Shown here in pieces: positions 1-21,708 of a stretch of DNA of 21,708 bases. The notes beneath the pieces are model-generated. The model did no database searches. It was not told the origin of the DNA and saw only the letters and a list, made by a program, of their open reading frames with translations. Positions within the stretch are counted from its first letter, which is position 1; every line of letters begins with the position of its first letter. Source of the DNA: a virus; IMG/VR virus record IMGVR_UViG_3300043399_000941, positions 1 to 21,708 of that record; one strand, given 5' to 3'. A program made the position numbers and the translations under genes.

Positions 1-146
1 GGGCAGCGACCCCCAAAATTTAGCTGATTCAAACCCGCCGAGCTCCTACCGCACCAGCTTGGCGGCGGCGGCGGGGTGTCAAAACGGCACTTTCACGCGC
101 AATAATCTCAGTTCTTTGTGTTTCACGCCTATGCGCCGCAAATCGC

Positions 147-161
147 TGGTAGAATCTACCA
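147..161. promoter_or_regulatory. Candidate operator dyad
   Basis: TGGTAGA and TCTACCA are perfect 7-base inverted arms around a single central A. A one-base loop cannot form an RNA hairpin, so a dimeric DNA-binding protein is the more natural reading. The dyad sits 20 bases upstream of the candidate TACCTTTG promoter element and 45 bases before the start codon at 207. No regulator gene lies in the window. A dyad of this length will occur somewhere in 21 kb by chance; its position is what makes it interesting. Confidence 0.35.
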
Positions 162-181
162 CGTGTTTGCACGCTTTTTCG

Positions 182-189
182 TACCTTTG
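182..189 (+). promoter_or_regulatory. Candidate Bacteroidota-type -7 promoter element (TACCTTTG)
   Basis: TACCTTTG matches the TAnnTTTG -7 consensus of Bacteroidota housekeeping promoters and ends 17 bases before the ATG at 207. The nearest TTTG upstream (166-169) is only 12 bases away, shorter than the usual spacing of about 19-20 bases to the -33 element, so only half of the promoter is convincing. If real, it would drive the ParB-like and PP-loop genes and perhaps the terminase genes. Confidence 0.35.
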
Positions 190-206
190 CGGAAAAGTGG
201 AAGCAG

Positions 207-950
207 ATGGCAAAGAACATCACGGAAAATACGCTGGCGATCGTGTATCGCAATGTTGAAGAGCTCGTTCCCTACGCGAACAACGCTCGCCGCCACGACA
301 ATCTCAAAGAACTCGAAGCGAACATTCGCCGCTTCGGTTTCCTCGATCCCATCGGCGTGGATGGCGCGGGCACGATCGTTTGGGGGCACGGGCGACTGCT
401 GGCCGCGAAGAACGTCGGCCTCGAGACCGTTCCCGTTATCGAGCTGCCCGCGCACCTGAGCGCCGAGGAGATCCGCGCCGTTCGTTTGGCGCACAACAAG
501 CTCACGGAAACGAGCGGGTGGATGGAAGACATCCTCGCCCAGGAGCTCCGCGAGCTGGCCGACTTGGGGCAGGCGATCGACCTGTTGGGCTGGGACGATT
601 CCGAGCTCGAGAAGCTCACCCGCGAAATGAGCAAGGCGATCGAGCAGCAGACCCGCGAACTCACGCAGGACGACGATGAGGAAGACGACGAGGACGACGA
701 GGAAGAGAAGCCCGCGAAGGTCGTCGAGCTGGGCGACCCCAAGCCCGCAGCAGGCCCCGAGGCATCCCCAGCCGACGCCCCGCAGCCCTTGCCGCCAGGC
801 GAGCGCTACGTGGAATTTTCGTTGGTGCTGCGCGAGGCCGAGCGCGACGAGCTGGTGGAAAAGATCAAGGCCATCAGTTCGGAGCTGGGTGTGGACGACG
901 ACGGCGCGGCGCTGCTGCACGTGGTTCGGAACTGGGGAGCGACGTCGTGA
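207..950 (+). CDS. ParB/Srx-fold protein, IbrB-like
   Basis: This 247-aa protein has a ParB N-terminal-type nuclease/NTPase fold. After a short leader, residues 15-30 give the VEELVPYANNARRH start of the domain, and residues 60-63 give the GHGR box that replaces the GERR box of chromosomal ParB in phage and methylase-linked members. No methylase domain follows. Residues 154-167 are an almost purely Asp/Glu linker, then a Pro-rich stretch and a small C-terminal domain. The stop overlaps the next start (GTGA, 947-950), so it is translationally coupled to a PP-loop protein. This pairing resembles E. coli IbrB/IbrA. A role in DNA modification, nicking or regulation is inference; a plasmid-partition role is unlikely because there is no ParA partner and no HTH domain is visible. 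Confidence 0.8.
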   Translation: MAKNITENTLAIVYRNVEELVPYANNARRHDNLKELEANIRRFGFLDPIGVDGAGTIVWGHGRLLAAKNVGLETVPVIELPAHLSAEEIRAVRLAHNKLTETSGWMEDILAQELRELADLGQAIDLLGWDDSELEKLTREMSKAIEQQTRELTQDDDEEDDEDDEEEKPAKVVELGDPKPAAGPEASPADAPQPLPPGERYVEFSLVLREAERDELVEKIKAISSELGVDDDGAALLHVVRNWGATS

Positions 951-1699
951 ACCCCGAGCTCGATCACGCCGACCACTACAAGCGCTCCGCGAACCTGCGG
1001 CACTTCCTGTATGCGAGGGAGAACGCGCATCGGGACATCAGCAAGGTAGCGACAAAGGCGCTGCTCGATCGCCTGCGGTGGTTCGTCGAAAGGGTGGTTA
1101 CTGCCGCCGAGCTGCCGACGCCCCCCGTCTTCGGTTGGAGTGGCGGAAAAGAGTCTGCCGTGCTGGAGTACGTGCTCAGGCCGTTCGGATGGCGCTCGGT
1201 GTGCGTGCTTACGCAGCTCGAGTTGCCCATTAGCGAGAAGTTCATCTCGCGGGCGCTGCCAAAGAACTTCACCGTCGCCACGACTCGCCACGACGTCGCC
1301 TGGTTGAAAGTGAACGACGAGTACCTGTTTCCGCGCGAGCCCGAGCAGATCAACAAGTGGCGGAAAATCACGGTGTTCGACACGTTGGAGGACTACGCCA
1401 AGACCTTCAACGCGGGGATGATGATCACGGGGCGGCGGCGCACGACGGGCGACAAGGTGCCAGGCATCATCGCGGTGGGCGAACGGCAGGTAAAGAACTT
1501 CGCCCCGCTGCTCGATCTCACCACGTCGGAGATTTGGGCGATGATGCGGCACTTCGACCTTCCCGAGCATCCGCTCTATGAGCTGGCGCCCAGCTCGCTG
1601 GTGCGAGGCACGGGCGGCTGGCCGATGCTCACGAGTTGGGAGACGATGCGCGGCGTTGATCGCGAGTTTTGCGCGGAAATGCGTACCTATTTCGCGTAA
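947..1699 (+). CDS. PP-loop ATPase, PAPS-reductase-fold, IbrA-like
   Basis: This 250-aa protein has the adenosine-nucleotide PP-loop SGGKES at residues 65-70, the signature of the PAPS reductase/ATP-pyrophosphatase fold. A second basic patch, GRRRTTGDK, lies near residues 160-168 and is a likely nucleotide-phosphate contact. The C-terminal catalytic cysteine motif of true PAPS reductase (ECGxH) and paired iron-sulphur cysteines are absent, so sulphate reduction is unlikely. The protein may activate a substrate by adenylation, as DndC- and IbrA-type relatives are thought to do. The start is a GTG overlapping the ParB-like stop by 4 bases. Phages often carry this pair next to the terminase genes, as here; its true substrate is not known to me. 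Confidence 0.8.
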   Translation: MNPELDHADHYKRSANLRHFLYARENAHRDISKVATKALLDRLRWFVERVVTAAELPTPPVFGWSGGKESAVLEYVLRPFGWRSVCVLTQLELPISEKFISRALPKNFTVATTRHDVAWLKVNDEYLFPREPEQINKWRKITVFDTLEDYAKTFNAGMMITGRRRTTGDKVPGIIAVGERQVKNFAPLLDLTTSEIWAMMRHFDLPEHPLYELAPSSLVRGTGGWPMLTSWETMRGVDREFCAEMRTYFA

Positions 1700-1746
1700 A
1701 AGAGAAGAAAAGCAACCAAAAACAGGACAAAACAACCACGTAGAAT

Positions 1747-2328
1747 ATGAAAACCAAGCTTAGAAACAGACCTGAAGGCCTCCCTGATGGGTATATGAGT
1801 ATGCGCGAATACGCCGAATCGCTGGGTATCGCGCATACTTCTGTCTACAATGCCATCAAGACGGGCAAGATCTCTAAGGTCGAATGGGGGGGAAAGGAGT
1901 GGATCAACAAGCCTGAAGCCGATGCGAATTGGTATGCAAAGTACAAGATCCAGGGCAATTCCAACCCGATCTTGCTGCAAACGCTGGCCAAAGGCGCGGG
2001 CGCCCCCGACGGCGAGCGCAAGCTAGACAAGATGGCCGCGTTGGAGCTCGCGAGCCAGCAGGAGCAGCTCTATAAGAGCCTGCTTCTCAAACAGAAGTAC
2101 GAGAAAGAAGCCCGCACGCTCGTCCCGCGCGAGGAGGTGAACAACCAGCTACGCGCCGTCGCCACCGCGCTGCGCGATCAACTGCTGCGCATCCCCGACC
2201 GCATCCTCGACGAGCTGCGGGCTACCACCGACCGCACCAAAGCTTTCAACCTGCTCTATGACGAGATCGAAAAGGTGCTGGTCGCTGTCTCGGAAGGCGA
2301 GCTCGATCGCATCATTGAGAAGCTCTAA
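1747..2328 (+). CDS. terS: Terminase small subunit, Nu1-like
   Basis: This 193-aa protein begins with a winged-helix/MerR-type DNA-binding motif (MSMREYAESLGIAHTSVYNA, about residues 17-36), as in lambda Nu1. A charged, predicted helical region with coiled-coil character follows (about residues 88-120), suited to oligomerisation and to contact with the large subunit. It should recognise the packaging site and load the motor onto phage DNA. It lies 11 bases before the terminase large gene. There is no Shine-Dalgarno; the ATG follows an A-rich leader containing AACCACGTAGAA (1734-1745), a 12-mer found again before the tail chaperone gene. The identification rests on the HTH, size and position. 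Confidence 0.85.
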   Translation: MKTKLRNRPEGLPDGYMSMREYAESLGIAHTSVYNAIKTGKISKVEWGGKEWINKPEADANWYAKYKIQGNSNPILLQTLAKGAGAPDGERKLDKMAALELASQQEQLYKSLLLKQKYEKEARTLVPREEVNNQLRAVATALRDQLLRIPDRILDELRATTDRTKAFNLLYDEIEKVLVAVSEGELDRIIEKL

Positions 2329-2339
2329 CCCCCACCAAT

Positions 2340-4229
2340 ATGGAGAAGAAAAAGAAGCGCGAACGAAGCGCCATCGAGGGATTCCTGCGCGGGCTGATGC
2401 CCGTCAAGCGGATGACCGTTTCGGAGTGGGCAGACCAATATCGGTTTCTGTCTGAGCTCGCATCCGCCGAGCCTGGCCGCTGGCGAACCAGCCGCGCGCC
2501 CTACCTCCGCGACATCCAAGACGCACTCAGCTCGGCAGCGAGCTACCAGCGCATCATCGTAATGAAAGGCGCGCAGCTCGGGCTTACCGAAGCGGGGCTA
2601 AACTGGCTCGGGTATCTGATGGATAACGACCCGTGCCCGATCCTCGCGGTGATGCCGACCGACTCGACAATGCGCCGCAACTCAAAGACGCGCATCGAGC
2701 CGATGATCGAGGCGACGCCTAGGTTGCGAGATAAGATCCTCGTCGGCGCCAAGCGCGACAGCCAAACGATGTTCGAGAAGTCGTTCGAGGGTGGCATCTT
2801 GCTGATGTGCGGCGCGAACTCGCCTTCGAACCTTGCCTCGCAGCCTGTGCGGGCGTTGTTCCTTGATGAGGTGGATCGCTACCCCGCCGACGCTGGTGGG
2901 GAAGGCAGCCCCGAGCAGCTCGCCGAGGCGCGGACGCGGACTTTCGCGCGGCGCAAGATCTTCAAGATCAGCACGCCCGTAACGAAAGGCGAGAGCGCGA
3001 TCGAGCGCGAGTACGAGCTCACCGACCAGCGCGAGTATCACGTGCCTTGCCCCGAGTGCGGGACGATGCAAACGCTTGTTTTCGAGCAGCTCCGATACAC
3101 CTACGACGCCAAACAGAAAGCCGCCCGCGACGCTCATTACGAGTGCGCACACTGCGGCCATCACATCCCCGAGCACAAGAAGCCCGAGATGCTCAGCGCT
3201 GGCGAGTGGATCGCCTCGGCGCCCGAGAAGAGCTCGCCCGTGATGATCGGGTTTTACATAAACTCCCTATACAGCCCCTACGGGTGGTTCTCCTGGGACG
3301 AGATCGCCACCCAGTACGAGCGCGCGATCGGCGACAACCTGAAAATGAAGGTGTTCACCAACACCACGCTCGGGCTGCCGTTCGCCGAGTCGGGGGAGGT
3401 GCCGAGCTGGGAGGCGCTCTACAATCGCCGCGAAACCTACGCCAAGGGCAAGCCGCCCAAGGGTGTCGTTATGCTTACCTGCGGCGTGGACGTCCAAAAG
3501 AACCGCCTTGAGTATCAGGTGGTTGGCTGGGGGCGGAACGACGAGAGCTGGGTGGTGGACTGGGATCGCATACCAGGCGACCCCGCCGAGGCCGCGACGT
3601 GGGAGAAGCTCGCGGCGGTGGTAAACACCATCTACACGCGCGAGGATGGGGTGCAGCTCCCCCTCTCGATGATGGCTGTCGATACGGGTTACCTGGCGTC
3701 GCACGTCTACGACTTCTGCCGCAGGTTCGATATCAGCCGCGTGGTAGCGATCAAGGGCAGCGACAACCCGCACATCCTCGTAAGCCCGCCGCGCACGATC
3801 GACTACAAGCCCGACGGCTCGAAGCTCGACAAGCTCACCATCGCGCTTTGGCAGGTGGGCGTGTCGGTGATCAAGTCAGACCTGTATGCGCGCCTCAAGC
3901 TCGCCCGCGACGGGGAGGGGAACGCGCCTCGGGGCTTCGTGCACTTCGGAGAGTTCAACGAGCCCGAGTACTTCAAGCAGCTCACCGCCGAGCAGCTCAC
4001 CTTTTCCGTGAAAAAGGGACGTACAAAGTACGAATGGACACTCAACTACCATCGAAATGAAGCCCTCGATATGTGGATTTACGCGCGTGCAGCGGCGATA
4101 ATTCGCGGTATCGATCGGTGGACGGACGATACTTTCCGTGCATTTGAAGACCAAGCAGCGCTGCAAATCGCGAAAAACTCGGGGCAGAATGCTCCCGCGA
4201 AGCGGAAACCAGCGTCGGATTTTTGGTAA
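2340..4229 (+). CDS. terL: Terminase large subunit, GpA family
   Basis: This 629-aa protein is the ATP-driven packaging motor and nuclease. The Walker A-like segment is KGAQLGLT (residues 76-83), Walker B is LFLDEVD (173-179) and the coupling motif STP follows at 211-213. CPEC (237-240) and CAHC (269-272) form a zinc-ribbon-like insertion typical of GpA-type enzymes. The C-terminal nuclease carries likely metal-binding aspartates in CGVDVQ (D384), AVDTGY (D448) and EALDMW (D577). Length is close to lambda gpA (641 aa). GpA-type terminases are usually linked to cos-type packaging, but no cos site was identified. It lies 11 bases after the small subunit and 30 bases before the gpW-type connector. 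Confidence 0.95.
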   Translation: MEKKKKRERSAIEGFLRGLMPVKRMTVSEWADQYRFLSELASAEPGRWRTSRAPYLRDIQDALSSAASYQRIIVMKGAQLGLTEAGLNWLGYLMDNDPCPILAVMPTDSTMRRNSKTRIEPMIEATPRLRDKILVGAKRDSQTMFEKSFEGGILLMCGANSPSNLASQPVRALFLDEVDRYPADAGGEGSPEQLAEARTRTFARRKIFKISTPVTKGESAIEREYELTDQREYHVPCPECGTMQTLVFEQLRYTYDAKQKAARDAHYECAHCGHHIPEHKKPEMLSAGEWIASAPEKSSPVMIGFYINSLYSPYGWFSWDEIATQYERAIGDNLKMKVFTNTTLGLPFAESGEVPSWEALYNRRETYAKGKPPKGVVMLTCGVDVQKNRLEYQVVGWGRNDESWVVDWDRIPGDPAEAATWEKLAAVVNTIYTREDGVQLPLSMMAVDTGYLASHVYDFCRRFDISRVVAIKGSDNPHILVSPPRTIDYKPDGSKLDKLTIALWQVGVSVIKSDLYARLKLARDGEGNAPRGFVHFGEFNEPEYFKQLTAEQLTFSVKKGRTKYEWTLNYHRNEALDMWIYARAAAIIRGIDRWTDDTFRAFEDQAALQIAKNSGQNAPAKRKPASDFW

Positions 4230-4234
4230 AAGCG

Positions 4235-4242
4235 TATCTTTG
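4235..4242 (+). promoter_or_regulatory. Candidate -7 promoter element (TATCTTTG)
   Basis: TATCTTTG fits the Bacteroidota TAnnTTTG element and ends 17 bases before the ATG at 4260, almost the same spacing as the element upstream of 207. It lies in the 30-base gap between terminase and connector genes. A correctly spaced TTTG is not seen 19-20 bases upstream. It could start a head/tail transcript. Occasional matches inside genes (for example in the tape measure near 13576) show that the motif alone is weak evidence. Confidence 0.35.
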
Positions 4243-4259
4243 TCGAAAACCAACCCGCT

Positions 4260-4496
4260 ATGTACACACAAGAGCAGATAACAGCCCTACGCGCAGCCAT
4301 TGCGACAGGCGCGACCGTCGTCGAATACGGCGACAAGCGCGTGGAATACCGCAGCCTCGCGGAGATGCGCAGCATTCTCGCCGAGATGGAGGCGGAGCTC
4401 GCTGGGCAGAAACAAAACGCGCGAACCAAGTTCGCGTATTTCAACTCGGGCGTGAACCAAGACACGACCACCGAGGAAAACCGCAAAAATTGGTAG
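4260..4496 (+). CDS. Lambda gpW-type head-tail connector
   Basis: This 78-aa protein matches the small gpW family: an N-terminal helix (TQEQITALRAAIATGA), a two-stranded hairpin with the typical VEYGDKRVEYRSLAEM segment, then a second helix. In lambda, gpW joins the portal ring to the neck and is needed for the head to accept a tail. The length is near lambda gpW (68 aa) with a short polar tail. Its position between terminase large subunit and portal is the lambda order (A-W-B). The stop is one base from the portal ATG. This is not the P2 gpW/gp25 baseplate protein, which is encoded separately at 16933. Confidence 0.85.
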   Translation: MYTQEQITALRAAIATGATVVEYGDKRVEYRSLAEMRSILAEMEAELAGQKQNARTKFAYFNSGVNQDTTTEENRKNW

Positions 4497-4497
4497 T

Positions 4498-5979
4498 ATG
4501 GGATTGTTTGAAAATTTCATCCGCTGGCTATCCCCGAGTAGGGCGCTCGCGCGCGAGGTAAGCCGCCAAAGCTTGGCCTATCTCGAAGGGCGAGGCTACA
4601 CGGCAGCGAGCAACGGGCGGCGCTTTGCCAACACGCCAGCACCGCAGACCTCCGCAAATGCCGAGCTGGTGCTAACCCTGCCGCAGCTTCGGGGGCGCTC
4701 ACGCGAGTTTGCGCGCAACAACCCCTACGTCGATCGCGCTCTCGAGGTGATCGCCAACAACGTCGTCGGCACGGGTGTGCGCGCGGCGTTCACGGTCGAA
4801 AAAGGGAAAGGCGCAAAGAACGCCGAGGCGAAACTTAAGCTTGCCTGGAATCGCTGGGCAGACAAAACCGAGTGCGACTTCGACGGACAAACGAACCTTT
4901 ACGGGCTGCAAAAGCTCGTGATGCGAGCCGTGGCGGAATCGGGCGAGGCGTTGATTATCAAGCGCACAAACCCCACGCGCCGCACGCTCGAGCTGCAAGT
5001 ACTCGAGGGGGATTTCCTCGACAGCAACCGACACAACGGTTTCGCGTATGGGTTCAATAACGAGGACGGCAGTTACGATTTTCACGGCATCCGATTCGAT
5101 CGGGATGGCCGTCGGATCGGCTATTGGCTGTTCGACAATCACCCAGGGGAGTATCGCGGCAGCTTCGAATCTCGTCTCGTGCCCGCCGACGACGTGATTC
5201 ACGTCTTCCGACGGCTGCGACCAGGCCAACAGCGCGGCGCGCCTTTCGGCGTTGCTGCCTTCCTGAGAATCAAGGACTACGACGATTACGAGGCCGCGCA
5301 ATTGATGCGCAACAAGGTAGCCGCGTGCTTCGCTGCCTTTGTGTCAGTCCCTTCGACGGGCATCCCGACCAACGGCGAGCAGTTCGAGCGGATCGAGCCA
5401 GGGATGATCTCGTATCTCAACCCTGGCGAAGACATCCGTTTCGGAGCTCCCCCGCAGGTGGAAGGCTACGAGCCATACAGCCGCCAGCAGCTCCGAGCGA
5501 TCGCCATCGCCTACGGCATAACGTACGAAAGTCTTACGGGCGATTTGTCGAACGTGAACTTCTCGAGCGGGCGTATGGGGTGGATCGAAATGCACCGAGG
5601 CATCACCTCGATGCAGCGCGATTTGATGATGCCCGCGCTAGATCGAGTGTTCCAGTGGTTCACTGATTATCTTTCGATTGCGACTGGATTTACCGCCCCT
5701 GTGTACGTCGAATGGACTGCGCCTAGACGCGAGATGATCGACCCCGTGAAAGAAACGCGGGCGATCGTCGAAAGCGTACAGGCGGGTATCCGTTCGTATC
5801 ACGAGGTTTGCCGCGAGCTCGGTTTCGATCCCGACGACACGTTGGAGGAAATCAAGAAGTTCTACGACGCGATCGACGCCTCGGGGTTGAAGCTCTCGAG
5901 CGACTTCCGCACGCAGATGAAGCCGCCCGAAAACGGTTTAGCTTCGGACAATTCGACAGGTAACGCACCGAGCGCGTAA
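4498..5979 (+). CDS. Portal protein, lambda gpB family
   Basis: This 493-aa protein should form the dodecameric ring at the packaging vertex. The N-terminal half has the family's RSREFARNNPYVDRAL segment followed by NNVVGTGVRAAF (about residues 70-100), and the later SLTGDLSNVNFSSGRMGW stretch (about 349-366) is the conserved lambda-portal signature. Lambda gpB is 533 aa, so the protein is full length. It starts one base after the gpW stop with no Shine-Dalgarno. The C-terminal 30 residues are polar and variable, as is normal. An 87-base gap with an A-rich leader follows before the capsid gene. Confidence 0.93.
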   Translation: MGLFENFIRWLSPSRALAREVSRQSLAYLEGRGYTAASNGRRFANTPAPQTSANAELVLTLPQLRGRSREFARNNPYVDRALEVIANNVVGTGVRAAFTVEKGKGAKNAEAKLKLAWNRWADKTECDFDGQTNLYGLQKLVMRAVAESGEALIIKRTNPTRRTLELQVLEGDFLDSNRHNGFAYGFNNEDGSYDFHGIRFDRDGRRIGYWLFDNHPGEYRGSFESRLVPADDVIHVFRRLRPGQQRGAPFGVAAFLRIKDYDDYEAAQLMRNKVAACFAAFVSVPSTGIPTNGEQFERIEPGMISYLNPGEDIRFGAPPQVEGYEPYSRQQLRAIAIAYGITYESLTGDLSNVNFSSGRMGWIEMHRGITSMQRDLMMPALDRVFQWFTDYLSIATGFTAPVYVEWTAPRREMIDPVKETRAIVESVQAGIRSYHEVCRELGFDPDDTLEEIKKFYDAIDASGLKLSSDFRTQMKPPENGLASDNSTGNAPSA

Positions 5980-6066
5980 AATCCTGACAATAAGTCAGAA
6001 AAAAACGCGGCAGCGCGGAGCTTGGAACGGAAAAAATACGTACAATTGCAGAAACATTCGCAAACT
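5980..6066 (+). other. A-rich leader upstream of capsid gene
   Basis: This 87-base gap is the longest gap after the terminase genes apart from the tRNA interval. It has a small inverted repeat (CTGAC 5984-5988, GTCAG 5994-5998), then an A run rather than a T run, so it is not a + strand terminator. TACAATTG at 6041-6048 differs from TAnnTTTG by one base. A TTG at 6022 would extend the capsid frame by 15 residues, but those residues are not protease-like and the ATG at 6067 is preferred. The stretch may be an untranslated leader for the abundant capsid mRNA. Confidence 0.4.
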
Positions 6067-8022
6067 ATGCCTGCATCTACTAACCGTTCTTTGCCCGTGC
6101 TGCATACGCGCGCGAGCATCGAGGCCGCAAGCTGGAACGCCGAGGAGCGCACGATTGACGTCGTGTTTGCTACCGAGACGCCAGTACGTCGGTTTGACTG
6201 GGAGGATTGGGAAGAGTTCGACGAGGTGTTGGACGTAAGCCCGTCCGCAATGGATCTTTCACGCGCAGGCAGCGGCTTGCCCGTTTTCAAAGATCACCGC
6301 GCCAGCGTGGACAACCAACTGGGGCGCGCGGACAAAATCAGGATCGATGGGAAGCGAGCGATCGCGACCATCCGATTCACGTCCAACCCCGCGCACGCGC
6401 CTCTGATCGAGGACATCCGATCGGGGCTGATCAACAACATCAGCGTCGGTTACCGAGTACTCGAATACACGACCTCCAAAAAGAAAGCGGACGGCTCTCG
6501 CGCCGAGTACCGCGCTACACGCTGGATGCCGCTGGAAATCAGCGTTGTAGGCGTGCCCGCCGATCCCAACAGCCAAACGATCCGATCCGCAACCGAGCCA
6601 AGCACCCATTTTCCCGTAATCATCAAAGACGAAACCATGTCTGAAAAACCGATCGAACCGATCGCGGACGACAAGCAGCCGAAGCCTGGCATCGACGCCG
6701 ACGCGCTGCGCCAAGCGGCTGAGGCGGAACGCCTGCGTTGCTTGGAGATCCGCAACATTGGACGCCGCGCAGGATTGTCCGATGCCTTCATCGATGAACA
6801 CATCTCGAAAAACACCGCCATCGAGAAGGTGCGCGAGCTCGCTTTCGATGCGCTGGCCGCGAAAGAGCATAAGCCGCGCGCTGGCGTGCAGTACGCGACT
6901 GTGGGCGACGACAACGAGCGAAACGCGATGCGCGAGGCGATGTCCGACGCGCTCATTCTGAGATCCGGTGCGATCGCTGGATATGATGAAAAGCTCGAGA
7001 AGCAGGACAAAGAAAAGCGTCGCCTGGCCGAGCAGTATCGCCACCTCTCGCTGAAGGACTTAGCGCGCAAGTGCCTGGAAAAATCGCGCGAGTACGACGA
7101 GAGCCTTCATCCGCTCAAGCTGGCAGAGCGCGCCTTCACAAGCACGACGGGCGACTTCCCAAACATCTTGGACGGCACCAACCGCCGCATCCTGCTCGAG
7201 AACTACGCCATCCAGTTGGACAAATGGCGTCAGATCTGCATCGTCGGTGCTGTTGGGGACTTCCGCGAGTACAAGCGCCTTCGTAAGGGAAGCTTGCCCA
7301 ACCTGACCAAGATCGCCGAGCTGCAAGAGTACGAAACTCTGCCGCTGAAGGATGGCAACTACGAACGCATCAAAATCGGTACGTATGGTAACACCATCAA
7401 CGTGTCGCGGCAGATGATCATCAACGACGACCTTCAGGCGTTCGCTTCCTTGGCTGCCGATCTTGGTCGTTCCGCTGCTCGTACCATCGACAACACCGTT
7501 TGGGCGTTGCTCGAGTCTAACCCAGAGATGGGCGACGGTGAGCGGCTTTTCTCGGCGGCGCACAACAACGTGGGCACTATCGGCACAGCTCCGAGTATCG
7601 CTGCATTCGACGTGATCCGTACTGCGATGTCCGAGCAGCGCGACCCCAATGGCAACGATTATCTCGACATCCAGCCGCACACGATCGCAATCCATCCTTC
7701 GCTTCGCAGCAAGGTCGATCAGATCAACAAGTCGATGTATGACCTCAGCGCCGCCACGGCGACTTTCACGCCCAACGTCGTCGAAGGGATGTTCAAGCAG
7801 ATCGTGGACACGCCCAAGTTGACCAATCGACTCGACTACTACGTCTTCGCAGACAAGGCGATCATCCCCACGCTCGAAGTAGCGTTCCTCAACGGCGTCC
7901 AAGAGCCCTTTATGGAAACGCAGACGGGCTTCCACGTGGACGGCCAGGAATGGAAGATTCGCCTCGATTTTGGTGTCGCCGCCATTGATTGGCGCGGCGC
8001 TTACAAACAAATCGGCGCGTAA
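6067..8022 (+). CDS. Prohead protease (S78) fused to major capsid protein
   Basis: From ATG 6067 the product is 651 aa. Residues 10-175 are an HK97-type S78 protease: catalytic His in VFKDHR (H77) and Ser in NNISVGY (S126), followed by the family's GVPADP. Residues 191-290 are charged and helical, resembling a scaffold. From about 300 to the end is an HK97-fold major capsid protein, with the typical LADLGRSAARTIDN and DYYVFAD segments. Fusion makes protease, scaffold and coat one polypeptide that must cut itself during maturation. Met191 (6637) is in frame, follows ACC in A-rich surroundings, and could be an internal start for a scaffold-capsid form, as Nu3 lies within lambda C. A terminator-like hairpin follows immediately. 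Confidence 0.92.
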   Translation: MPASTNRSLPVLHTRASIEAASWNAEERTIDVVFATETPVRRFDWEDWEEFDEVLDVSPSAMDLSRAGSGLPVFKDHRASVDNQLGRADKIRIDGKRAIATIRFTSNPAHAPLIEDIRSGLINNISVGYRVLEYTTSKKKADGSRAEYRATRWMPLEISVVGVPADPNSQTIRSATEPSTHFPVIIKDETMSEKPIEPIADDKQPKPGIDADALRQAAEAERLRCLEIRNIGRRAGLSDAFIDEHISKNTAIEKVRELAFDALAAKEHKPRAGVQYATVGDDNERNAMREAMSDALILRSGAIAGYDEKLEKQDKEKRRLAEQYRHLSLKDLARKCLEKSREYDESLHPLKLAERAFTSTTGDFPNILDGTNRRILLENYAIQLDKWRQICIVGAVGDFREYKRLRKGSLPNLTKIAELQEYETLPLKDGNYERIKIGTYGNTINVSRQMIINDDLQAFASLAADLGRSAARTIDNTVWALLESNPEMGDGERLFSAAHNNVGTIGTAPSIAAFDVIRTAMSEQRDPNGNDYLDIQPHTIAIHPSLRSKVDQINKSMYDLSAATATFTPNVVEGMFKQIVDTPKLTNRLDYYVFADKAIIPTLEVAFLNGVQEPFMETQTGFHVDGQEWKIRLDFGVAAIDWRGAYKQIGA

Positions 8023-8060: not shown

Positions 8061-8087
8061 CACCTCAAAACAAGCCGCATACTCATC

Positions 8088-8438: not shown

Positions 8439-8449
8439 ACCGCATCCCT

Positions 8450-8788: not shown

Positions 8789-8790
8789 CT

Positions 8791-9291: not shown

Positions 9292-9294
9292 GAT

Positions 9295-10740
9295 ATGCCC
9301 GCAAACTTCCTTCACGGGGTCGAAACAATCGAACTCCGTAACGGTGCCCGCCCCGTGAACCCCGTCAAAAGCGCGGTGATCGGGCTTATCGGCATCGCTC
9401 CGCTCGCCCAGGGCGCGGAAAAGCTCACGCTGGTGCAGAACACGCGCGACGCCGCGCAGTTCGGAATCCCAGCGCAGGAGAACACGATTGCCTCCGCGTT
9501 GAAGGCCATCTTCACGCAGGGCAACGCCACCGTGCTGGTGGTGAACGTGTTCGACCCTGGCAACCACGCGAGCACCGAGGACTTCAACTACACCGTGACG
9601 AACGGGAAGTTCAAAATCACCGATCGCGTGATTGTGGACGGCCTCGTTCTCACCGACGTAAACACCGCGACGCAGCTCACCAACAACACCGACTACGCCT
9701 ACGACCCCACGACGCAGGTGGTTACGATCCTCAACGGATCTAGCTACCCCGACGGCACGGTGATCAATGCAGAGTTTTCCGCGCTCACCAACGACCTGAG
9801 CGACGTAACGCCGAGCGAGATCATTGGACTAGATGCGGCCATTCCGACCGACTCGACTGGGTTGAAACGCTTCAAAGCAGCGTTCAACGAGTTCGGTTTC
9901 TCGCCCCGCATCATCATCGCGCCTTGGTTCTCGATCAACGCATCGGTATCGACCGAGATGGTCGCCCTGGCGACGCAGTTGCGCGCGCACGCTCTACTCG
10001 ATGCCCCCAAAAACGCCACCGTCGCGGAGTGCCTGCAAGGGCGCCTCAACACGAGCGGGCTTGTGAAGAACTTCCTCACTCGCTCGAAGCGCGCGATCCT
10101 TTGCTACCCGACCGTTCAAACCTACGACGTCTTTTACGATGAGGTTGTATCTGCGCCGCTTTCGACGTTCCTCGCGGGCGTAATGGCCAACACGGATTTT
10201 GTGAAAGGCTATTGGAAGTCGCCCTCCAATGAGGAAATTCAAGGGATTGTAGGGCTCGATCGGCTCATCTCCTGGCGTCTCAACGACCCGCAGACGGACG
10301 CTAATCTTCTCAATGAGAAGGGCATCGTTACCGTCGCTTCGGGCGGAGGCGTTGCGTACCGTATTTGGGGCAACCGCAGCGCGCTGTGGGACTCCGATAG
10401 CTTCCCCGACAACTTCATCTGCGTGCAGCGGACGGCGGATATCATCCACGAGAGTATCGAGCTCGCGATGCTGCCGTTTATCGACGAGCCCATTACCAAA
10501 ATGGTGATCAACGCCATTAAGGAAACGGGGAACTCGTTTCTCCGCCGCCTCCAGCGGGTGGGCGCGATTGTCGGAGGCGCGGTGTCTTACGACCCATCCA
10601 AAAACCCGCCCGATCAAATCGCGCTGGGGCAGTTGGTCTTCGACATCGAGTTTATGCCGAGCGTGCCCGCCGAGCGCATTACGTTCGAATCTTTTATCAA
10701 CCAGCAGCTTCTCAACGCTCTCAACGTTGACGCTGCCTAA
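9295..10740 (+). CDS. FI: Contractile tail sheath protein, P2 FI-like
   Basis: This 481-aa protein is the contractile sheath subunit. It opens with FLHGVETIELRNGARPV and VKSAVIGLIGIAP, the classic sheath N-terminus, which exchanges strands with neighbouring subunits. The C-terminal sheath domain includes the conserved SWRLNDPQTD, YRIWGNRSAL and RTADIIHESIELAM segments (about residues 325-395). It is longer than P2 FI (396 aa), mostly in the middle domain at about residues 90-170, a surface insertion. Followed by the tube gene after 14 bases, it fixes the phage as contractile-tailed. Confidence 0.95.
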   Translation: MPANFLHGVETIELRNGARPVNPVKSAVIGLIGIAPLAQGAEKLTLVQNTRDAAQFGIPAQENTIASALKAIFTQGNATVLVVNVFDPGNHASTEDFNYTVTNGKFKITDRVIVDGLVLTDVNTATQLTNNTDYAYDPTTQVVTILNGSSYPDGTVINAEFSALTNDLSDVTPSEIIGLDAAIPTDSTGLKRFKAAFNEFGFSPRIIIAPWFSINASVSTEMVALATQLRAHALLDAPKNATVAECLQGRLNTSGLVKNFLTRSKRAILCYPTVQTYDVFYDEVVSAPLSTFLAGVMANTDFVKGYWKSPSNEEIQGIVGLDRLISWRLNDPQTDANLLNEKGIVTVASGGGVAYRIWGNRSALWDSDSFPDNFICVQRTADIIHESIELAMLPFIDEPITKMVINAIKETGNSFLRRLQRVGAIVGGAVSYDPSKNPPDQIALGQLVFDIEFMPSVPAERITFESFINQQLLNALNVDAA

Positions 10741-10754: not shown

Positions 10755-11279
10755 ATGCCACGCAATATTGAAATGAACAACGTCACCAACTGCTCGATCC
10801 TTTTGGGGAATATGAACCTCATCGGGACGGCCAGCGAGGTGAAGCTCCCGACGATCAAGTGGAAGAAGGTAGACCACAAGTCTCTCGGAATGATCGGCAC
10901 GCCACAGCTTCCCGCTGGCGTCGAACCGTTGGAGATGAGTATCAAGTGGAACGGCCCCTATAAGGCTGTCCTTTCTCGCATCGGAAACCCGTTTGCTGCG
11001 CAGAAGTACCAAATCCAAAGCGCGGTAGATAGCTACGACAACAACACGGGGCTTAGCCGCCGCATCGAGCAAACGCACTACGTTACCGCGATGACGACCG
11101 ATATCCCGCAGGGCGATTTTGCTGCCCACGAGAAAGTCGAAACGGAGGTAATGTACACCGTTACGCACGTCCGCCACGAGCTGGACGGCGAGGTGATGCT
11201 CGAGATCGACGTGATCAACAACATCTACATCGTAAACGGCGTCGATGTCCTCGCGGACTGGCGCCAAATCATGCAGTAA
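10755..11279 (+). CDS. FII: Tail tube protein, P2 FII-like
   Basis: This 174-aa protein matches the P2 FII major tail tube family in length and sequence pattern: N-terminal MPRNIEMNNVTNCSILL, central MIGTPQLPAGVEPLEMSIKWNG, and a C-terminal YIVNGVDVLADWRQIM. It forms the rigid inner tube driven through the host envelope on contraction. It follows the sheath gene as in P2. The tRNA-like gene starts 17 bases after its stop, an unusual place for an RNA gene. Confidence 0.93.
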   Translation: MPRNIEMNNVTNCSILLGNMNLIGTASEVKLPTIKWKKVDHKSLGMIGTPQLPAGVEPLEMSIKWNGPYKAVLSRIGNPFAAQKYQIQSAVDSYDNNTGLSRRIEQTHYVTAMTTDIPQGDFAAHEKVETEVMYTVTHVRHELDGEVMLEIDVINNIYIVNGVDVLADWRQIMQ

Positions 11280-11296: not shown

Positions 11297-11394
11297 CGGC
11301 GAGTAGCTCAGCGGAAGAGCGCTTCGACCTCCCAGGGCAATTGTGGGGCGGGAGGTTGAAGAGGGCGCGGGTTCGAATCCCGCCTCGCCTCCCA
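11297..11394 (+). tRNA. tRNA-like gene with extended anticodon-arm hairpin
   Basis: The body is a complete class I tRNA. Acceptor GGCGAG (11298-11303) pairs with CTCGCC (11384-11389); the first pair (C11297/T11390) is mismatched. T8 and A9 are present. The D arm has GCTC/GAGC with loop GG, the variable loop is AGGGC, and the T arm is GCGGG-TTCGAAT-CCCGC. CCA is encoded (11392-11394) after discriminator C. The Levitt pair G15-C48 is kept. The anticodon arm is not normal: 12 bases (11322-11333) pair with 11350-11361 (one G-U) around a 16-base loop, so positions 32-38 are 30 bases instead of 7 and U33 is lost. No anticodon can be assigned. It could be a tRNA with a short insertion, a degenerate tRNA, or a tRNA mimic that attracts RNase P. 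Confidence 0.75.
11322..11361 (+). other. 12-bp hairpin replacing the anticodon loop
   Basis: CTTCGACCTCCC (11322-11333) is fully complementary to GGGAGGTTGAAG (11350-11361) with one G-T pair. The first five pairs are the normal tRNA anticodon stem; the next seven are additional. The loop (11334-11349) contains the palindrome CAATTG and two G runs. No T run follows, so it is not an intrinsic terminator. The helix is continuous, unlike the bulge-helix-bulge of archaeal tRNA introns, and the extra 23 bases are far too short for a group I intron. Confidence 0.8.
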
Positions 11395-11415: not shown

Positions 11416-11781
11416 ATGAGCAACCGAAAAAAGACGACCGAAGGGGCATCGCCCGCTATCACGACCACGCCGATCGCCACCACGACCACGCCGACGAACA
11501 AGACCTTGAAACTCAGCGACGGCCGCACGGCAGAGCTCCGCCCGCTGCGGGTTCGCGACGCGATCGAGGCGCGCCGGATCGTGGCCGCAAACAGCTATGT
11601 GAACAAGGGCGCCGAGCCCGATCCCCAGGAGATCTCCGCCGCGATGCTGGCGCAGATTCTCACGATCGACGGCCAGCCCCAGCACTACAAAGCCGTGCTC
11701 GATCTGTTCTTTGTCGACTTCGTAACGCTCGCCACTGAGATGGGCACGGGTTTTACGCCCGCGGATTTGCCAGCTTCCTAG
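11416..11781 (+). CDS. Tail assembly chaperone, P2 gpE-like (zero-frame product)
   Basis: This 121-aa protein has a Thr-rich N-terminal leader (residues 10-28), then a compact domain with KLSDGRTAELRPLRVRDAIEARR and YKAVLDLFFVDFVTLA, typical of the chaperones encoded between tube and tape measure. Such proteins coat the tape measure during tail assembly and are not in the virion. The ATG follows the leader AACCACGTAGAA (11400-11411). The stop TAG (11779) lies inside the stem-loop of a -1 frameshift signal; the longer product continues to 11987. Confidence 0.85.
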   Translation: MSNRKKTTEGASPAITTTPIATTTTPTNKTLKLSDGRTAELRPLRVRDAIEARRIVAANSYVNKGAEPDPQEISAAMLAQILTIDGQPQHYKAVLDLFFVDFVTLATEMGTGFTPADLPAS

Positions 11782-14044: not shown

Positions 14045-14046
14045 CT

Positions 14047-15114: not shown

Positions 15115-15126
15115 CCGCCCCCACCG

Positions 15127-16284: not shown

Positions 16285-16920
16285 ATGTATCGCACAGGCA
16301 CAATTTCGCAGGCCAAGCCCGCCGAGGGCTTGTACAAGGTGCAATTCGCCGAGGACGACCTCGAGTCGGGCTGGCTGCATCTTGTTGTAAAGAAAACGCT
16401 GAAGGATAGCAGCACCCACGCCCTCGATGTCGGCGAGCACGTCGCTTGCCTGATGGATGAGCACTGCGAACGCGGCGCGATCCTAGGCGCGATCTACTCC
16501 GAGTCCGAAACGCCCAAAAACGCTTCTGCCGACATCGAGGGCACGACCTTCTCGGACGGCACCCGCGTATCCTACGACCGCAGCTCGCACACGCTCACGG
16601 TGGACGTGCAAGGCGGGAATATCACGATCAAAACCACCGCCGACGTCCTCGTGGACTGCGTAAACGCGACCGTGAAAGCAAGCGCCGGAGTAAAGCTCGA
16701 TACCCCGCGCGGCGAGGTAACAGGCGACTGGAAAGTGGGCGGGAATCTCACGATCGTCGGCACCACGACGGGCGGCAGCAACTTCCAAACGGACGGCAGC
16801 CTTCGCGTTCGCGGCGATGCGGAAGTGCTCGGCGAAGTCAGCGCCAAAGCGGACACCGTTCGCCTATCTACTCACACCCACCCGACGCCCGCTGGTCCCT
16901 CGGGGCCAGGGCTCGGCTAA
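16285..16920 (+). CDS. V: Baseplate spike protein, P2 gpV-like
   Basis: This 211-aa protein has an N-terminal OB-fold (about residues 1-75) that attaches to the hub, and a repetitive beta-helical middle (GGNITIKTTADVLVDC and onward). It ends in an apex with THTHPTPAGPSGPG. The HTH at residues 197-199 matches the His-x-His motif that binds iron at the tip of P2 gpV-type trimers. There is no lysozyme domain and no separate PAAR protein is encoded, so the spike pierces the outer membrane by itself. Outer-membrane piercing fits a didermic host. Confidence 0.93.
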   Translation: MYRTGTISQAKPAEGLYKVQFAEDDLESGWLHLVVKKTLKDSSTHALDVGEHVACLMDEHCERGAILGAIYSESETPKNASADIEGTTFSDGTRVSYDRSSHTLTVDVQGGNITIKTTADVLVDCVNATVKASAGVKLDTPRGEVTGDWKVGGNLTIVGTTTGGSNFQTDGSLRVRGDAEVLGEVSAKADTVRLSTHTHPTPAGPSGPGLG

Positions 16921-16932
16921 ACCAATAGCGCT

Positions 16933-17304
16933 ATGGCAACCCTGGCAGACATCAGAAACGCGAATTGGCAGCTCGCCACCGCCGCACCTGGCGACGTGGT
17001 GCAGGGCTACGCTGATATTCAGCAATGCCTCGAGACGCTGCTCTACACCGTCAAGGGCACGGCGGTGCTCCGCCCCCAGTACGGCATCGATCTCCCGTCG
17101 TACATCGACCGCCCCCTTACGGAGGTTGTGCCGCTGTTGAAACGCGAGATCATCGATCAAGTCGAAGCCTACGAGCCGCGCGTGGACATCGAAAAGATCG
17201 AGATGGCGATCGAGGAGATCTCGCGGCTGCGCGTTCGTGTCTATTACGTCCCGAAAAATTCCAACCGTCGCGAGGTGGTGGATCTATATTATATCGTATC
17301 TTAG
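16933..17304 (+). CDS. W: Baseplate wedge protein, P2 gpW / T4 gp25 family
   Basis: This 123-aa protein has the gp25-like pattern: DIQQCLETLLYTVKGTAVLRPQYGIDLPSYIDRP, then LKREIIDQVEAYEPRVDIEKIEM and a final beta strand RVRVYYVP. It is a baseplate wedge component that nucleates sheath polymerisation. It lies between spike and J as in P2. Its ATG is preceded by TAGCGCT, one of several starts here with a GCT immediately before ATG. Confidence 0.92.
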   Translation: MATLADIRNANWQLATAAPGDVVQGYADIQQCLETLLYTVKGTAVLRPQYGIDLPSYIDRPLTEVVPLLKREIIDQVEAYEPRVDIEKIEMAIEEISRLRVRVYYVPKNSNRREVVDLYYIVS

Positions 17305-17321
17305 CCCCCAATAACTAGAAT

Positions 17322-18422
17322 ATGGCAGCACCCGTTTTCATCGCCCGCGACATCACGACCATCCGCAACGAAATCGTCGCGGACTACCAAGCGCGCACAG
17401 GCCGCACGCTCCAACCCTCGCAGGTGGAAACCTTCCTCCTCGATGCGATGGCATATCGCGAGCTGCTCGTTCGCAATGCGATCCAAAACGCGGGCGAGCT
17501 CAACCTCGTCGGCTTCTCGTCGGGCGCTCACCTCGAGGCGCTGGCCGACCTCGTTGGCGTCCAACGCCTGGGCGCTTCCGCTGCGGCTTGTACGCTGCGT
17601 TTCGTGCTCGCTGTCGGGCACACGGGCGTAACGATTCCCGCAGCCACCCGCGTCGCGTCGCTCGACGGCAAGGCGGTTTTTCGCACCACGCAATCGGCAG
17701 CAGCGGCCAGCGGTACGACCTACATCGATGTGCCCGCCGAGTGCGAGGTGGTGGGCGAGGTGGGCAACGGGTTTGCCGCTGGCATCATCAACGTGCTGCT
17801 CGACCCCCGTCCGTTCGTGGTGAGCGCTGCCAACCTCGCTTTGACAGCGGGCGGCGCTGATGTGGAAACCGACGACAACCTGCGGGAGCGCATCCAGCTC
17901 GCGCCCAGCTCGTTCTCGAATGCGGGCAGCTACGGCGCTTACAAGTTTTGGGCACGCACGGCCAACGCGAATATCGTGGACGTGGCGGTGCTGAATCCGA
18001 CGCCTGGCGTTGTGGCCATCTATCCGCTGATGGAAGACGGCCAGCCGACGCCCTCGCAGATCATCGCGGCGGTTTTGGCAGCGTGCAGCGCGGACAATCG
18101 GCGCCCGCTCTGCGATACGGTCGTGGTGTCGTCGCCTACCCGCGTGAACTACACGCTCGTCGTGGAACTCACGCTCTACCTATCCAACCCCGACCCCGCG
18201 CAGACGGTCGCAGATGTCGAAGCAGCGCTTCAGGCGTTTGTGGACGAGCGGCGGCGCAAGCTGGGGCAGGATGTCGTCGCCACGCAGGTAATCGAGCGCG
18301 CCCAAATCGCGGGCGTGTACGAGGTTGCGCTTCCTGGCTTCTCGAATTTGATCATCGCCCCAACGGAGTTTCCCTACTGCACCTCGATCAACGTGCAGGC
18401 GGTGGGCTCGGTGCTGGGCTAA
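17322..18422 (+). CDS. J: Baseplate assembly protein J
   Basis: This 366-aa protein belongs to the baseplate J/T4 gp6-like family that forms the wedge ring around the hub. Visible signatures are LLVRNAIQNAGELNLVGFSSGAHLEALADLVGVQRLG (about residues 48-84), GVTIPAATRVAS, and GGADVETDDNLRERIQLAPSSFSNAGSYGAYKFWA (about 171-205). A C-terminal ferredoxin-like region includes the RVNYTLVVELTLYL strand. Length is close to P2 J (302 aa) with a modest extension. Confidence 0.94.
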   Translation: MAAPVFIARDITTIRNEIVADYQARTGRTLQPSQVETFLLDAMAYRELLVRNAIQNAGELNLVGFSSGAHLEALADLVGVQRLGASAAACTLRFVLAVGHTGVTIPAATRVASLDGKAVFRTTQSAAAASGTTYIDVPAECEVVGEVGNGFAAGIINVLLDPRPFVVSAANLALTAGGADVETDDNLRERIQLAPSSFSNAGSYGAYKFWARTANANIVDVAVLNPTPGVVAIYPLMEDGQPTPSQIIAAVLAACSADNRRPLCDTVVVSSPTRVNYTLVVELTLYLSNPDPAQTVADVEAALQAFVDERRRKLGQDVVATQVIERAQIAGVYEVALPGFSNLIIAPTEFPYCTSINVQAVGSVLG

Positions 18423-18433
18423 TCCGCGCGCGA

Positions 18434-19114
18434 ATGAACCTGCTTCCGAACTCGCTGCAACAGCCGCACATCACCGTCTTCGACGAGCTCTATGCCGATC
18501 GCCTGGCTGCGCTTCCGCTCGAGGTAATCATCACCTACCTCGTGCAGATCGTGCCCCCGCAGGTGCTCCCGCACTTGGCGGAAACGTTCGATATGCTCGG
18601 CTACAACGGCTACGGGCTGGCAACGACCGACCAGCAGCGCCGCGATGTGATCCTAGGCGCGATCGAGCTGCATCGCCTGAAAGGTACGCCGTACTCGATC
18701 CGCCGCGCCCTCGAGCTGTTTGGATATCCAAACGCCACCTTCGACGAGGGCGTGGGCACGGCGATCCGCTACGACGGCACCTACACGTATTCGGGCATTA
18801 TTCAATACAACGCGGGCGGCGGGCACTGGGCGCTCTTCGATGTGATTTTCAACGCCGCGTCGTTCCAAACGCTGCCCGCCTTCGATGTCGATCTCATTCG
18901 CAACGTGGTGGAAGCCTACAAGCCCGCGCGGTGCACGCTGAGAAACATCACCGTTTCTCTCGCTTTGGAGGATTCGCTCGCGGCGGCTGATGAACTAGCG
19001 TTGGACGCAGATCTAAGCCTGCAAGACCAACTGCCAAATCTCTACGACGGCGCGAGCCAGTACGACGGCTCGATCCGCCACGACAGTTATCAAGAATCAG
19101 TAACAATCGTCTAA
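18434..19114 (+). CDS. I: Tail protein I, baseplate wedge
   Basis: From ATG 18434 the product is 226 aa; a longer in-frame reading would run into the J gene. The N-terminus (NLLPNSLQQPHITVFDELYADRLAAL) and the GAIELHRLKGTPYSIRRALELFGY motif are characteristic of P2 I-type proteins, which bridge the baseplate wedge to the tail fibres (T4 gp7-related). The C-terminal part has short YDG/YNG-type repeats (RYDGTYTYSG, QYNAG, LYDGASQYDGS), a feature of this family. It ends directly before the next ATG (TAA then ATG). Confidence 0.92.
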   Translation: MNLLPNSLQQPHITVFDELYADRLAALPLEVIITYLVQIVPPQVLPHLAETFDMLGYNGYGLATTDQQRRDVILGAIELHRLKGTPYSIRRALELFGYPNATFDEGVGTAIRYDGTYTYSGIIQYNAGGGHWALFDVIFNAASFQTLPAFDVDLIRNVVEAYKPARCTLRNITVSLALEDSLAAADELALDADLSLQDQLPNLYDGASQYDGSIRHDSYQESVTIV

Positions 19115-19552
19115 ATGAAAGAAGAAATCGTAACCCCGAAAGGCGAGGTAAGACTAACCGCGCACGATGCGGACGGGAATGAGATTTGGTCGTTCGAAAA
19201 GAACAACCTGATCGTGATGCTCGGGCGGCAGAACCTCGCCCAGTTCCTCATAACGGGCGACACCACGCGCCGCATCACGACCGTCGGGTTCGGTACGGAC
19301 GGCACCCTGCCCGCCAGCGGCGACACAGGCCTTACGGGCACGTTCTCGAAGGCGATCGGTGGCGCAACCAGCCCCGCAGCCAACCAAGTCCAATTCCTGT
19401 TCGGGCTTTTGTCCGGCGAAAACAACGGGATGGCAATCCGCGAACTCGGGCTCTTTACCGCCGCTGGCGATCTTTTCGCCCGCCTGGTGATTCCGACCTT
19501 CAACAAGGTCGCGGGAATCACGCTCAACGGCACTTGGAAAATCATCTTTTAA
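19115..19552 (+). CDS. Putative tail-fibre adaptor / baseplate-associated beta protein
   Basis: This 145-aa protein has the pattern NNLIVMLGRQNLAQFL, then ITTVGFGTDGTLPASGDTGL, and finally IRELGLFTAAGDLFARLV ending in NGTWKIIF. I know this arrangement from small proteins encoded between tail protein I and the fibre gene in P2- and Mu-like phages; they are thought to be structural and fibre-linked. It is beta-rich with no catalytic motif. The ATG abuts the I stop and 12 bases separate it from the fibre gene. The exact role is unproven. Confidence 0.7.
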   Translation: MKEEIVTPKGEVRLTAHDADGNEIWSFEKNNLIVMLGRQNLAQFLITGDTTRRITTVGFGTDGTLPASGDTGLTGTFSKAIGGATSPAANQVQFLFGLLSGENNGMAIRELGLFTAAGDLFARLVIPTFNKVAGITLNGTWKIIF

Positions 19553-19564
19553 AAACCGACCACG

Positions 19565-20716
19565 ATGGCAAATCTCACCCCCACGCCCGTCTTTGACGAC
19601 GTGCTCCAGCTTGAAACCACCGATTACGTCCTCGGCGGTTCGGGCGGCATCTCGAACACGCAAGCCCAGCAGCTCGCAAATCGAACCCAATACCTGCTAG
19701 GCCTTTACAACGCCCTGGCTACCGCGTTGATCCCACCCGTGTCGGGCGCGTGCCTGATGGGGCGGGTGGATAGCTCCACGCAGCTCGAAATACTGCTCAC
19801 GATTCCCGCAGGCATTGGCGTGCAGCTCAACGCTGCGCCGTCCTACCCGTGCATCCTGGCATTTCAAAACGGCTTCGACCTAAACGGCGTCGAAAAGGTA
19901 ACGTACCGCCGTCTAACCGCAGATATTCCCATCAGCAACATCGCGCTGGGCACCGCTGGCCAGCACCTTGTTTACGCGCAAATTGTTGGGACTACGGTCG
20001 AAATCAACGCCACCGCGCGGACGATCTATATCCAGGGCATCGCGCCAGCGGCGGATAACGATGCGCTTTGGTACGATTATAACAGCAACGTTTGGTACCA
20101 AGGGCAGGGCGTTTCTTGGGTAGCCGTGCAGGTTGTCCCGCTAGGGATCGTAACCGTTACGGCAGGCGTACCGAGCGCTATCCGCACCTTCCCCTACGGC
20201 GTTCCGTACTACGACCGCCGCACCCAGGCGGGCAACGTCATCCAAAGCGCGGCCAACGAGCTGCCGTTGGGCGGCTACCTGCTCTGTGATGGCACGGCGG
20301 TAAGCCGCACGCGTTATGCGCGGTTGTTCGCCCGCATCGGTACGACCTGGGGCAGCGGCAACGGCTCAACAACTTTCAACCTGCCCGATATGCGCGGAGC
20401 GTTCCTGCGCGGCTTCGACAACGGGCGCGGCGTGGACGCTGGCCGCACGTTCGGTACGAGCCAAAAGGGTACGATCCACGCGATCGACTCGACGGGCACC
20501 AACCAGCTCTATTCCGCTGTGATGACGTCCACCTCGTTGTCGTCCGCAGACGCCGCGCTGGTCGCAGAGCGCACAGGCCTCGATTACGACGCCAACGGCG
20601 CAACGAACTACCCCAACACCACCGCCGCGTACGCAAACGGCGATGGCTCGGGCGGCTTCAATTACGGTGTGAGCCGTCCGTTCAACGTCACCGTGAACTA
20701 CTACATCAAGTTTTAG
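19565..20716 (+). CDS. Tail fibre protein with tail collar domain
   Basis: This 383-aa protein starts with a helical attachment region (PTPVFDDVLQLETTDYVLGG and QAQQLANRTQYLLGLYNAL) and a beta-rich shaft (about residues 60-215). A classic phage tail-collar domain lies at about 226-284: LPLGGYLLCDGTAVSRTRYARLF, then WGSGNGSTTFNLPDMRGAFLRGFD. The last stretch, SRPFNVTVNYYIKF, is the standard C-terminus of collar fibres. It is likely the receptor-contacting or short fibre. The stop TAG overlaps the AGGAGG of the next gene. Receptor specificity cannot be read from the sequence. Confidence 0.9.
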   Translation: MANLTPTPVFDDVLQLETTDYVLGGSGGISNTQAQQLANRTQYLLGLYNALATALIPPVSGACLMGRVDSSTQLEILLTIPAGIGVQLNAAPSYPCILAFQNGFDLNGVEKVTYRRLTADIPISNIALGTAGQHLVYAQIVGTTVEINATARTIYIQGIAPAADNDALWYDYNSNVWYQGQGVSWVAVQVVPLGIVTVTAGVPSAIRTFPYGVPYYDRRTQAGNVIQSAANELPLGGYLLCDGTAVSRTRYARLFARIGTTWGSGNGSTTFNLPDMRGAFLRGFDNGRGVDAGRTFGTSQKGTIHAIDSTGTNQLYSAVMTSTSLSSADAALVAERTGLDYDANGATNYPNTTAAYANGDGSGGFNYGVSRPFNVTVNYYIKF

Positions 20717-20720
20717 GAGG
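20715..20720 (+). promoter_or_regulatory. Strong Shine-Dalgarno sequence (AGGAGG)
   Basis: AGGAGG lies five bases before TTG 20726 and overlaps the stop codon of the fibre gene (TAG 20714-20716). It is the only canonical ribosome-binding site in front of a start in this window, where every other gene lacks one. It decides the TTG start of the last gene: the first in-frame ATG (near 20951) would drop 75 residues. Confidence 0.75.
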
Positions 20721-20725
20721 CATCC

Positions 20726-21610
20726 TTGCTTATCGAGTCCCAGGCGCCGTCGCTGTCGATCGGCGGCATCCCGTTCACCAACGCACCCGTCGGAAGCGAG
20801 CAGATCGAGGGCATCTTCCTCGGCGAGCTCGCAACCCTCGACGGCCCCGCGCCCGCGATCTTTTTTCGCCTGGGCTCGAGCAATACGGTCGTGTGGCTGT
20901 TCACCGACGAGGCGGCGCGAGATACCGAGTACCTGTCGGTAAAGACCGCGATGGCGGGCGGCGGCAGCGGGGGCGACCTCGCGGCACTCACGTCGCTGAT
21001 CGCGCAGATGTCGCTCAACAACGACGAGCTCGAACCCAAGCTCGATCTGCTCCACAGCGACAACGAGCTGATCCGCGCGGCGCTCAACGACCTCGCGCCC
21101 AAGCTGGTGGGCATCGGCCAGCCCGAAGACCCGCCCGCGTCGTCGGACATCGCCAGCACGTCGCTCCTGGCGCACGTGAAGCGCCTTTCGGCCAAGTTCG
21201 GCGCCAAGGGGCGGCAGACCGCCAACGAGTCGATCTCGGTCGTACAGGCCAGCGATGCGCCTCCGACCGTCGTCCGCAGCGGAGCGAGCGCCAGCACCTT
21301 CTCGCTGGCCTTGCAGGTGGGCAGCGCGGCGACGTTCGACACCGCCGACTTCGCGGGCATCTGCTTCGACTTCGCGGGCTTCGCGACGTCGCAGGTGCTC
21401 ACAGTCGAAGCGTGCAATACCGAGAACGGCACGTTCCGCGCGGTGCAGGTGCGCAACCTGGCGACGGGCGCGCTGACTACGACCATTAACGCGGTGGGGC
21501 TGTATCAGCTTCTCACCGTTGCCCGATACGTCCGCTTGCGGGTTTCGACCGCAGGCAGCAACGGCGTAACCAGCGGCACGGCCTTCTGCAAGGCGCTGGC
21601 TGCTGCGTAA
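20726..21610 (+). CDS. Unidentified tail-tip or fibre-associated protein
   Basis: This 294-aa protein uses a TTG start behind AGGAGG. Residues about 1-75 form a beta-rich domain (SIGGIPFTNAPVGSEQIEGI, VVWLFTDEAARDTEYLSV). A Gly-rich hinge (GGGSGG) and a helical region with coiled-coil character follow (about 83-125: LAALTSLIAQMSLNNDELEP, LLHSDNELIRAALNDL). The segment ESISVVQASDAPP resembles linkers in phage structural proteins. The C-terminal 110 residues are a beta domain of likely jelly-roll type. GC is about 67% over 20761-21540, higher than the genes upstream. Position suggests a distal tail component, perhaps with a carbohydrate- or surface-binding C-terminus. I do not recognise the family. 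Confidence 0.6.
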   Translation: MLIESQAPSLSIGGIPFTNAPVGSEQIEGIFLGELATLDGPAPAIFFRLGSSNTVVWLFTDEAARDTEYLSVKTAMAGGGSGGDLAALTSLIAQMSLNNDELEPKLDLLHSDNELIRAALNDLAPKLVGIGQPEDPPASSDIASTSLLAHVKRLSAKFGAKGRQTANESISVVQASDAPPTVVRSGASASTFSLALQVGSAATFDTADFAGICFDFAGFATSQVLTVEACNTENGTFRAVQVRNLATGALTTTINAVGLYQLLTVARYVRLRVSTAGSNGVTSGTAFCKALAAA

Positions 21611-21635
21611 TCGCTTCTTTTCTACGTTGGTTGCA

Positions 21636-21667
21636 CCCGTCCCGAGAAATTGGGGCGGGTTTTTTTT
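21636..21667 (+). terminator. Strong rho-independent terminator ending the late operon
   Basis: CCCGTCCC (21636-21643) pairs with GGGGCGGG (21652-21659) in eight pairs, one G-T, around the loop GAGAAATT, followed by eight T residues (21660-21667). It lies 25 bases after the stop of the last gene. With the capsid-proximal hairpin it is one of two clear intrinsic terminators, and marks the end of the structural operon. Confidence 0.9.
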
Positions 21668-21708
21668 ATTTAACTAGCGAAATTTCGTAACCTATTCCGC
21701 GCGGCTGC

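Follow-up and report, generated by a model that had tools for sequence, protein, structure and literature searches.

The window, the whole 21,708 bases of IMG/VR record IMGVR_UViG_3300043399_000941 (60.1% GC), covers a fragment of the genome of an uncultured myophage. The phage is contractile-tailed: the terminase and portal are of lambda type, protease and capsid are fused, and genes for sheath, tube, tape measure, baseplate and fibre are present. The genes of relevance here are:

207–950, + strand: protein with a ParB domain; it matches ParB-DNA methyltransferase fusions in their N-terminal part and has no methyltransferase domain
947–1699, + strand: PAPS-reductase-domain protein
2340–4229, + strand: terminase large subunit, lambda gpA type, used as the marker for finding relatives
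4498–5979, + strand: portal, lambda family
6022–8022, + strand: prohead protease-major capsid fusion
9295–10740, + strand: contractile tail sheath
10755–11279, + strand: tail tube
17322–18422, + strand: baseplate J-like protein

No methyltransferase domain was found in the genes of this fragment scanned with one or more of Pfam, NCBIfam and PHROGs, in agreement with an earlier note on this DNA that no protecting methylase is encoded in the window; the first gene does, however, correspond to the ParB half of a family of ParB-methyltransferase fusions. Lifestyle genes are likewise absent from the 21.7 kb fragment. The ParB-domain and PAPS-reductase-domain genes overlap (207–1699), a pairing reminiscent of IbrB/IbrA. 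Between the tail tube and the next gene lies a tRNA-like element (11297–11391, + strand) that matches Rfam RF00005 at 45.7 bits and receives no call from ARAGORN. Its acceptor and T arms are normal, and the anticodon stem has 12 bp with a loop of 16 nt. Used as a host marker, the sequence gave no match in phages or plasmids. An ordinary tRNA-Met (CAT) occupies the same slot in the relatives L109 and L110.

The tetramer CCGG is present in four copies in the whole window:

6965–6968, no strand: CCGG, in the protease-capsid fusion gene
11574–11577, no strand: CCGG
16685–16688, no strand: CCGG, in the baseplate spike gene
19413–19416, no strand: CCGG

Base composition alone predicts 176 copies, and the count lies far below both Markov and codon-preserving expectation. 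An order-2 Markov model predicts 95 (z −11.5), and 300 synonymous-codon shuffles of 24 window genes gave an expectation of 110, the lowest shuffle still containing 87 (z −13.3). Both of these comparisons had been proposed in the earlier note, and both bear out the near-loss it described from four copies, three of which it had placed correctly and the first at 6964 instead of 6965.

The deficit is independent of codon use and reading frame. CCG, elsewhere the commonest proline codon (107 of 197), is missing altogether where the next base is G (0 of 114), and codons of the type xCC are nearly never chosen before glycine; before GG we found alanine GCC in 1 of 55, threonine ACC in 0 of 39 and proline CCC in 0 of 17 cases, and arginine CGG follows C in 1 of 131. 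The Pro-Gly pairs at 5221, 5401, 5426, 9557 and 18005 are written with CCA or CCT, just as had been noted before. Sorted by reading phase, CCGG shows a deficit in all three (0/39, 3/44 and 1/28; slashed counts are observed/expected throughout).

The earlier note had considered the depletion to be specific to CCGG. This does not hold, as three further words are equally empty:

1–21708 (whole record), no strand: near-absence of CCGG, CATG, GGNCC and CCAGA/TCTGG

CATG stands at 5/48 (copies at 6636, 8087, 11270, 11415 and 13222), GGNCC at 5/90 (copies at 753, 10953, 16894, 16903 and 20843) and the non-palindromic CCAGA/TCTGG at 1/36. For CATG the imprint on codons is again evident, since 4 of 90 codons standing in front of ATG end in C, versus 3011 of 5591 elsewhere. 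Also low are GTSAC (5/24), GTYRAC (3/18), CCRYGG (4/31), CCGCGG (1/13), CGGCCG (1/15), GGWWCC (1/23) and CAGCTG (0/8). GGNNCC is depleted in part, with GGCGCC (12/17) and GGCACC + GGTGCC (10/13) persisting and most other forms occurring 0 or 1 times. The deficits of CCAGA, GTSAC, GTYRAC and CCGCGG survive shuffling in which CCGG, GGNCC and CATG are fixed at their observed level. CCSGG and RCCGGY were rejected as separate depleted words, their deficits following from that of CCGG.

Among the words named earlier as common, GCGC, CGCG and GATC do occur at normal frequency in the window, as do TCGA, ACGT, CTAG and CCWGG, and AGCT is over expectation. GGCC does not belong with them, being present at half its expectation (66/123), in part through its overlap with GGNCC. 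Two further words, GTCA/TGAC (40/94) and CTCC/GGAG (about half of the codon-shuffle expectation), are also reduced in the window; neither has a matching orthodox site.

Words may be lost by mutation when a methyltransferase methylates the cytosine of its sites and deamination erodes them, and the Neisseria systems for CCGG and CCAGA are indeed m5C methylases. The products of such decay are not in excess, with CTGG at 119/124, CCAG at 74/98, TATG at 36/37 and CATA at 13/15. Because they are not enriched, the loss of CCGG appears to stem from selection on the word rather than from mutation. With GGNCC and CATG equally lost, we find the mutational route hardly credible.

The depletion is spread over known R-M recognition sites. 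CATG and GGNCC count among the classic Type II targets, those of NlaIII and Sau96I, respectively; GTSAC, GTYRAC and CCGCGG are the targets of Tsp45I, HindII and SacII. CCGG, CCAGA and GGNNCC have been assigned to Neisseria R-M systems, CCAGA being recognised by a Type IIS m5C system in Neisseria meningitidis; in the table for one N. meningitidis strain, CCGG (NmeAI) and GGNNCC (NlaIV) stand beside CCAGA, the NlaIV genes being inactivated there (PMC7973814, PMC7046676). The window resembles this repertoire in that the three co-occurring targets are avoided, CCGG and CCAGA almost fully and GGNNCC partly, and differs from it in that the meningococcal target GATC is not avoided and the phage has 60% GC (PMC7973814, PMC7046676). 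The CCAGA gap was detected statistically first, and its match to a Type IIS target was found in the literature afterwards. As R-M systems are subject to horizontal transfer, the match of targets to Neisseria assigns no host.

The closest relatives have terminases of about 45–52% identity, the best protein identities to the window being 52% for the terminase, about 50% for the sheath and 48% for the portal. No record in the phage collection shows nucleotide similarity to the window, and neither a close relative nor a host was encountered in one genome-collection scan and in 58 + 369 genomes. These relatives are often devoid of restriction sites too, but of different ones, the avoided set varying from phage to phage. 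Examples are L109 (GATC 0/41, CTAG 0/22, GGCC 2/31), L117 (CGCG 0/17), L156 (GATC 2/19) and L095 (CCGG 0/58, GGNCC 1/47, GGNNCC 0/53, CCAGA 2/25, GATC 1/62, CCNGG 2/46, CGNCG 2/52). Over about 110 records, strong depletion was found for palindromic tetramers in 56 of 1519 tests, and for non-palindromic ones in 46 of 24652. With CTAG set aside, strong palindrome depletion was seen in 1 of 23 isolate-genome records, mostly prophages to judge by the record names, versus 26 of 86 metagenome records. Terminase-relative contigs of G061, G054 and G331, together with sampled host DNA, showed no such depletion. Where hosts carry CcrM/HinfI-type systems, their phages are expected to avoid GANTC. The sheath relatives L013, L014, L017, L022, L024 and L046 fit this pattern, with 0–3 copies where 26–65 are expected, unlike the window (53/78), which shows no strong avoidance.

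A host genome itself poor in these words, whose composition the phage shares, could leave the same gaps, and hosts of old R-M systems are known to avoid their own sites too (PMC4687349). The different site sets of the relatives argue against such a host-wide bias, as does a sister phage in a genome bin, G001:C22 (CCWGG 1/56, CGCG 11/96, GATC 21/137). This phage avoids GATC, CGCG, GGCC and GGNCC, which the rest of bin G001, as sampled, does not; GATC stands at 319/302 there, against the 21/137 of the phage. Methyltransferases of the families PF00145, PF02086 and PF01555 had no match in the bin. The mismatch may reflect either wrong binning or a difference between the binned and the restricting strains. 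With the host samples of the three other relatives being normal as well, we consider a host-wide bias very unlikely.

The gap at CCAGA recurs in at least nine relatives, including L114, L119, L121 and L008, as might be expected if the phage's own DNA biology (packaging, or a phage-coded nuclease or regulator) forbade these words. However, the close relatives L110 and L111 tolerate CCAGA (52/89 and 107/81), and avoidance of CCGG, CATG, GGNCC, GATC and CGCG varies phage by phage within the clade. A constraint of this kind therefore appears very unlikely indeed.

The explanation we favour, with a probability of about 0.88, is that several host Type II R-M systems selected for the loss of their sites in a probably non-temperate phage lineage. 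The systems met in the host range would have included those cutting at CCGG, CATG, GGNCC and CCAGA, nearly all of these sites having been lost, and probably others directed against GTSAC or GTYRAC, CCGCGG and part of GGNNCC. Any site left unmethylated would put the incoming DNA at risk of a cut, so that synonymous changes destroying sites would be favoured until few remain. Points against this explanation are the lack of methyltransferase matches in bin G001, weaker deficits such as those of GTCA and CTCC that fit no orthodox site, and the absence of lifestyle genes from the fragment. The earlier note had suggested selection by an HpaII-type system. Restriction as the cause is well supported by the words affected, the deficit in all frames, the lack of deamination scars, the different sites avoided by relatives, and the absence of such avoidance in the sampled prophages and host DNA. 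A single HpaII-type system is insufficient, because at least four independent specificities have been nearly eliminated.

It was also considered that the ParB gene had lost its methyltransferase half and that avoidance had taken over. This was rejected as unsupported, for in a first set of 50 records, themselves fragments, those matching PF01555 or PF00145 avoid no fewer sites (Mann-Whitney p = 0.75). The L081 record has a PF01555 match, yet six sites are avoided in it.

Restriction avoidance is a known strategy, seen here in an extreme multi-site form that is notable in degree and breadth. According to Rusinov et al. (2018), prokaryotic viruses avoid orthodox Type II R-M sites, near-completely mainly in non-temperate phages, and about one-tenth of viral genomes show complete or almost complete site elimination (PMC6286503). 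The window is like these viruses in being from a dsDNA phage with restriction palindromes nearly lost, and the same selection is invoked; it is unlike them in having several sites near zero at once, including the asymmetric Type IIS site CCAGA. The set of missing words would thus be a readable record of the enzymes with which a phage lineage has had to cope. Where a phage is uncultured, this record could be used to predict the restriction repertoire of an unseen host, narrow host assignment and flag uncharacterised specificities.

Two gaps in this myophage clade may be of the last kind. CGNCG is nearly absent from the whole records L002/G370 (2/161), L008/G374 (4/135), L118/G387 (1/159) and L095/G379 (2/52); nucleotide similarity, weak at about 74% over 5.5 kb, links G370 to G374, and the other pairs of the four share none. 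No enzyme targeting CGNCG was found described in the literature searched; in two passages that name it, CGNCG is GCNGC written for the complementary strand, or a sequence that proved a poor substrate on testing. The asymmetric CGCTC/GAGCG stands at 1/128 in the 49 kb of L110/G382. That the blindly detected CCAGA gap matched a described Type IIS target lends support to the same reading here, and we tentatively propose, as one possibility, that CGNCG and CGCTC/GAGCG are targets of undescribed, widespread restriction systems.
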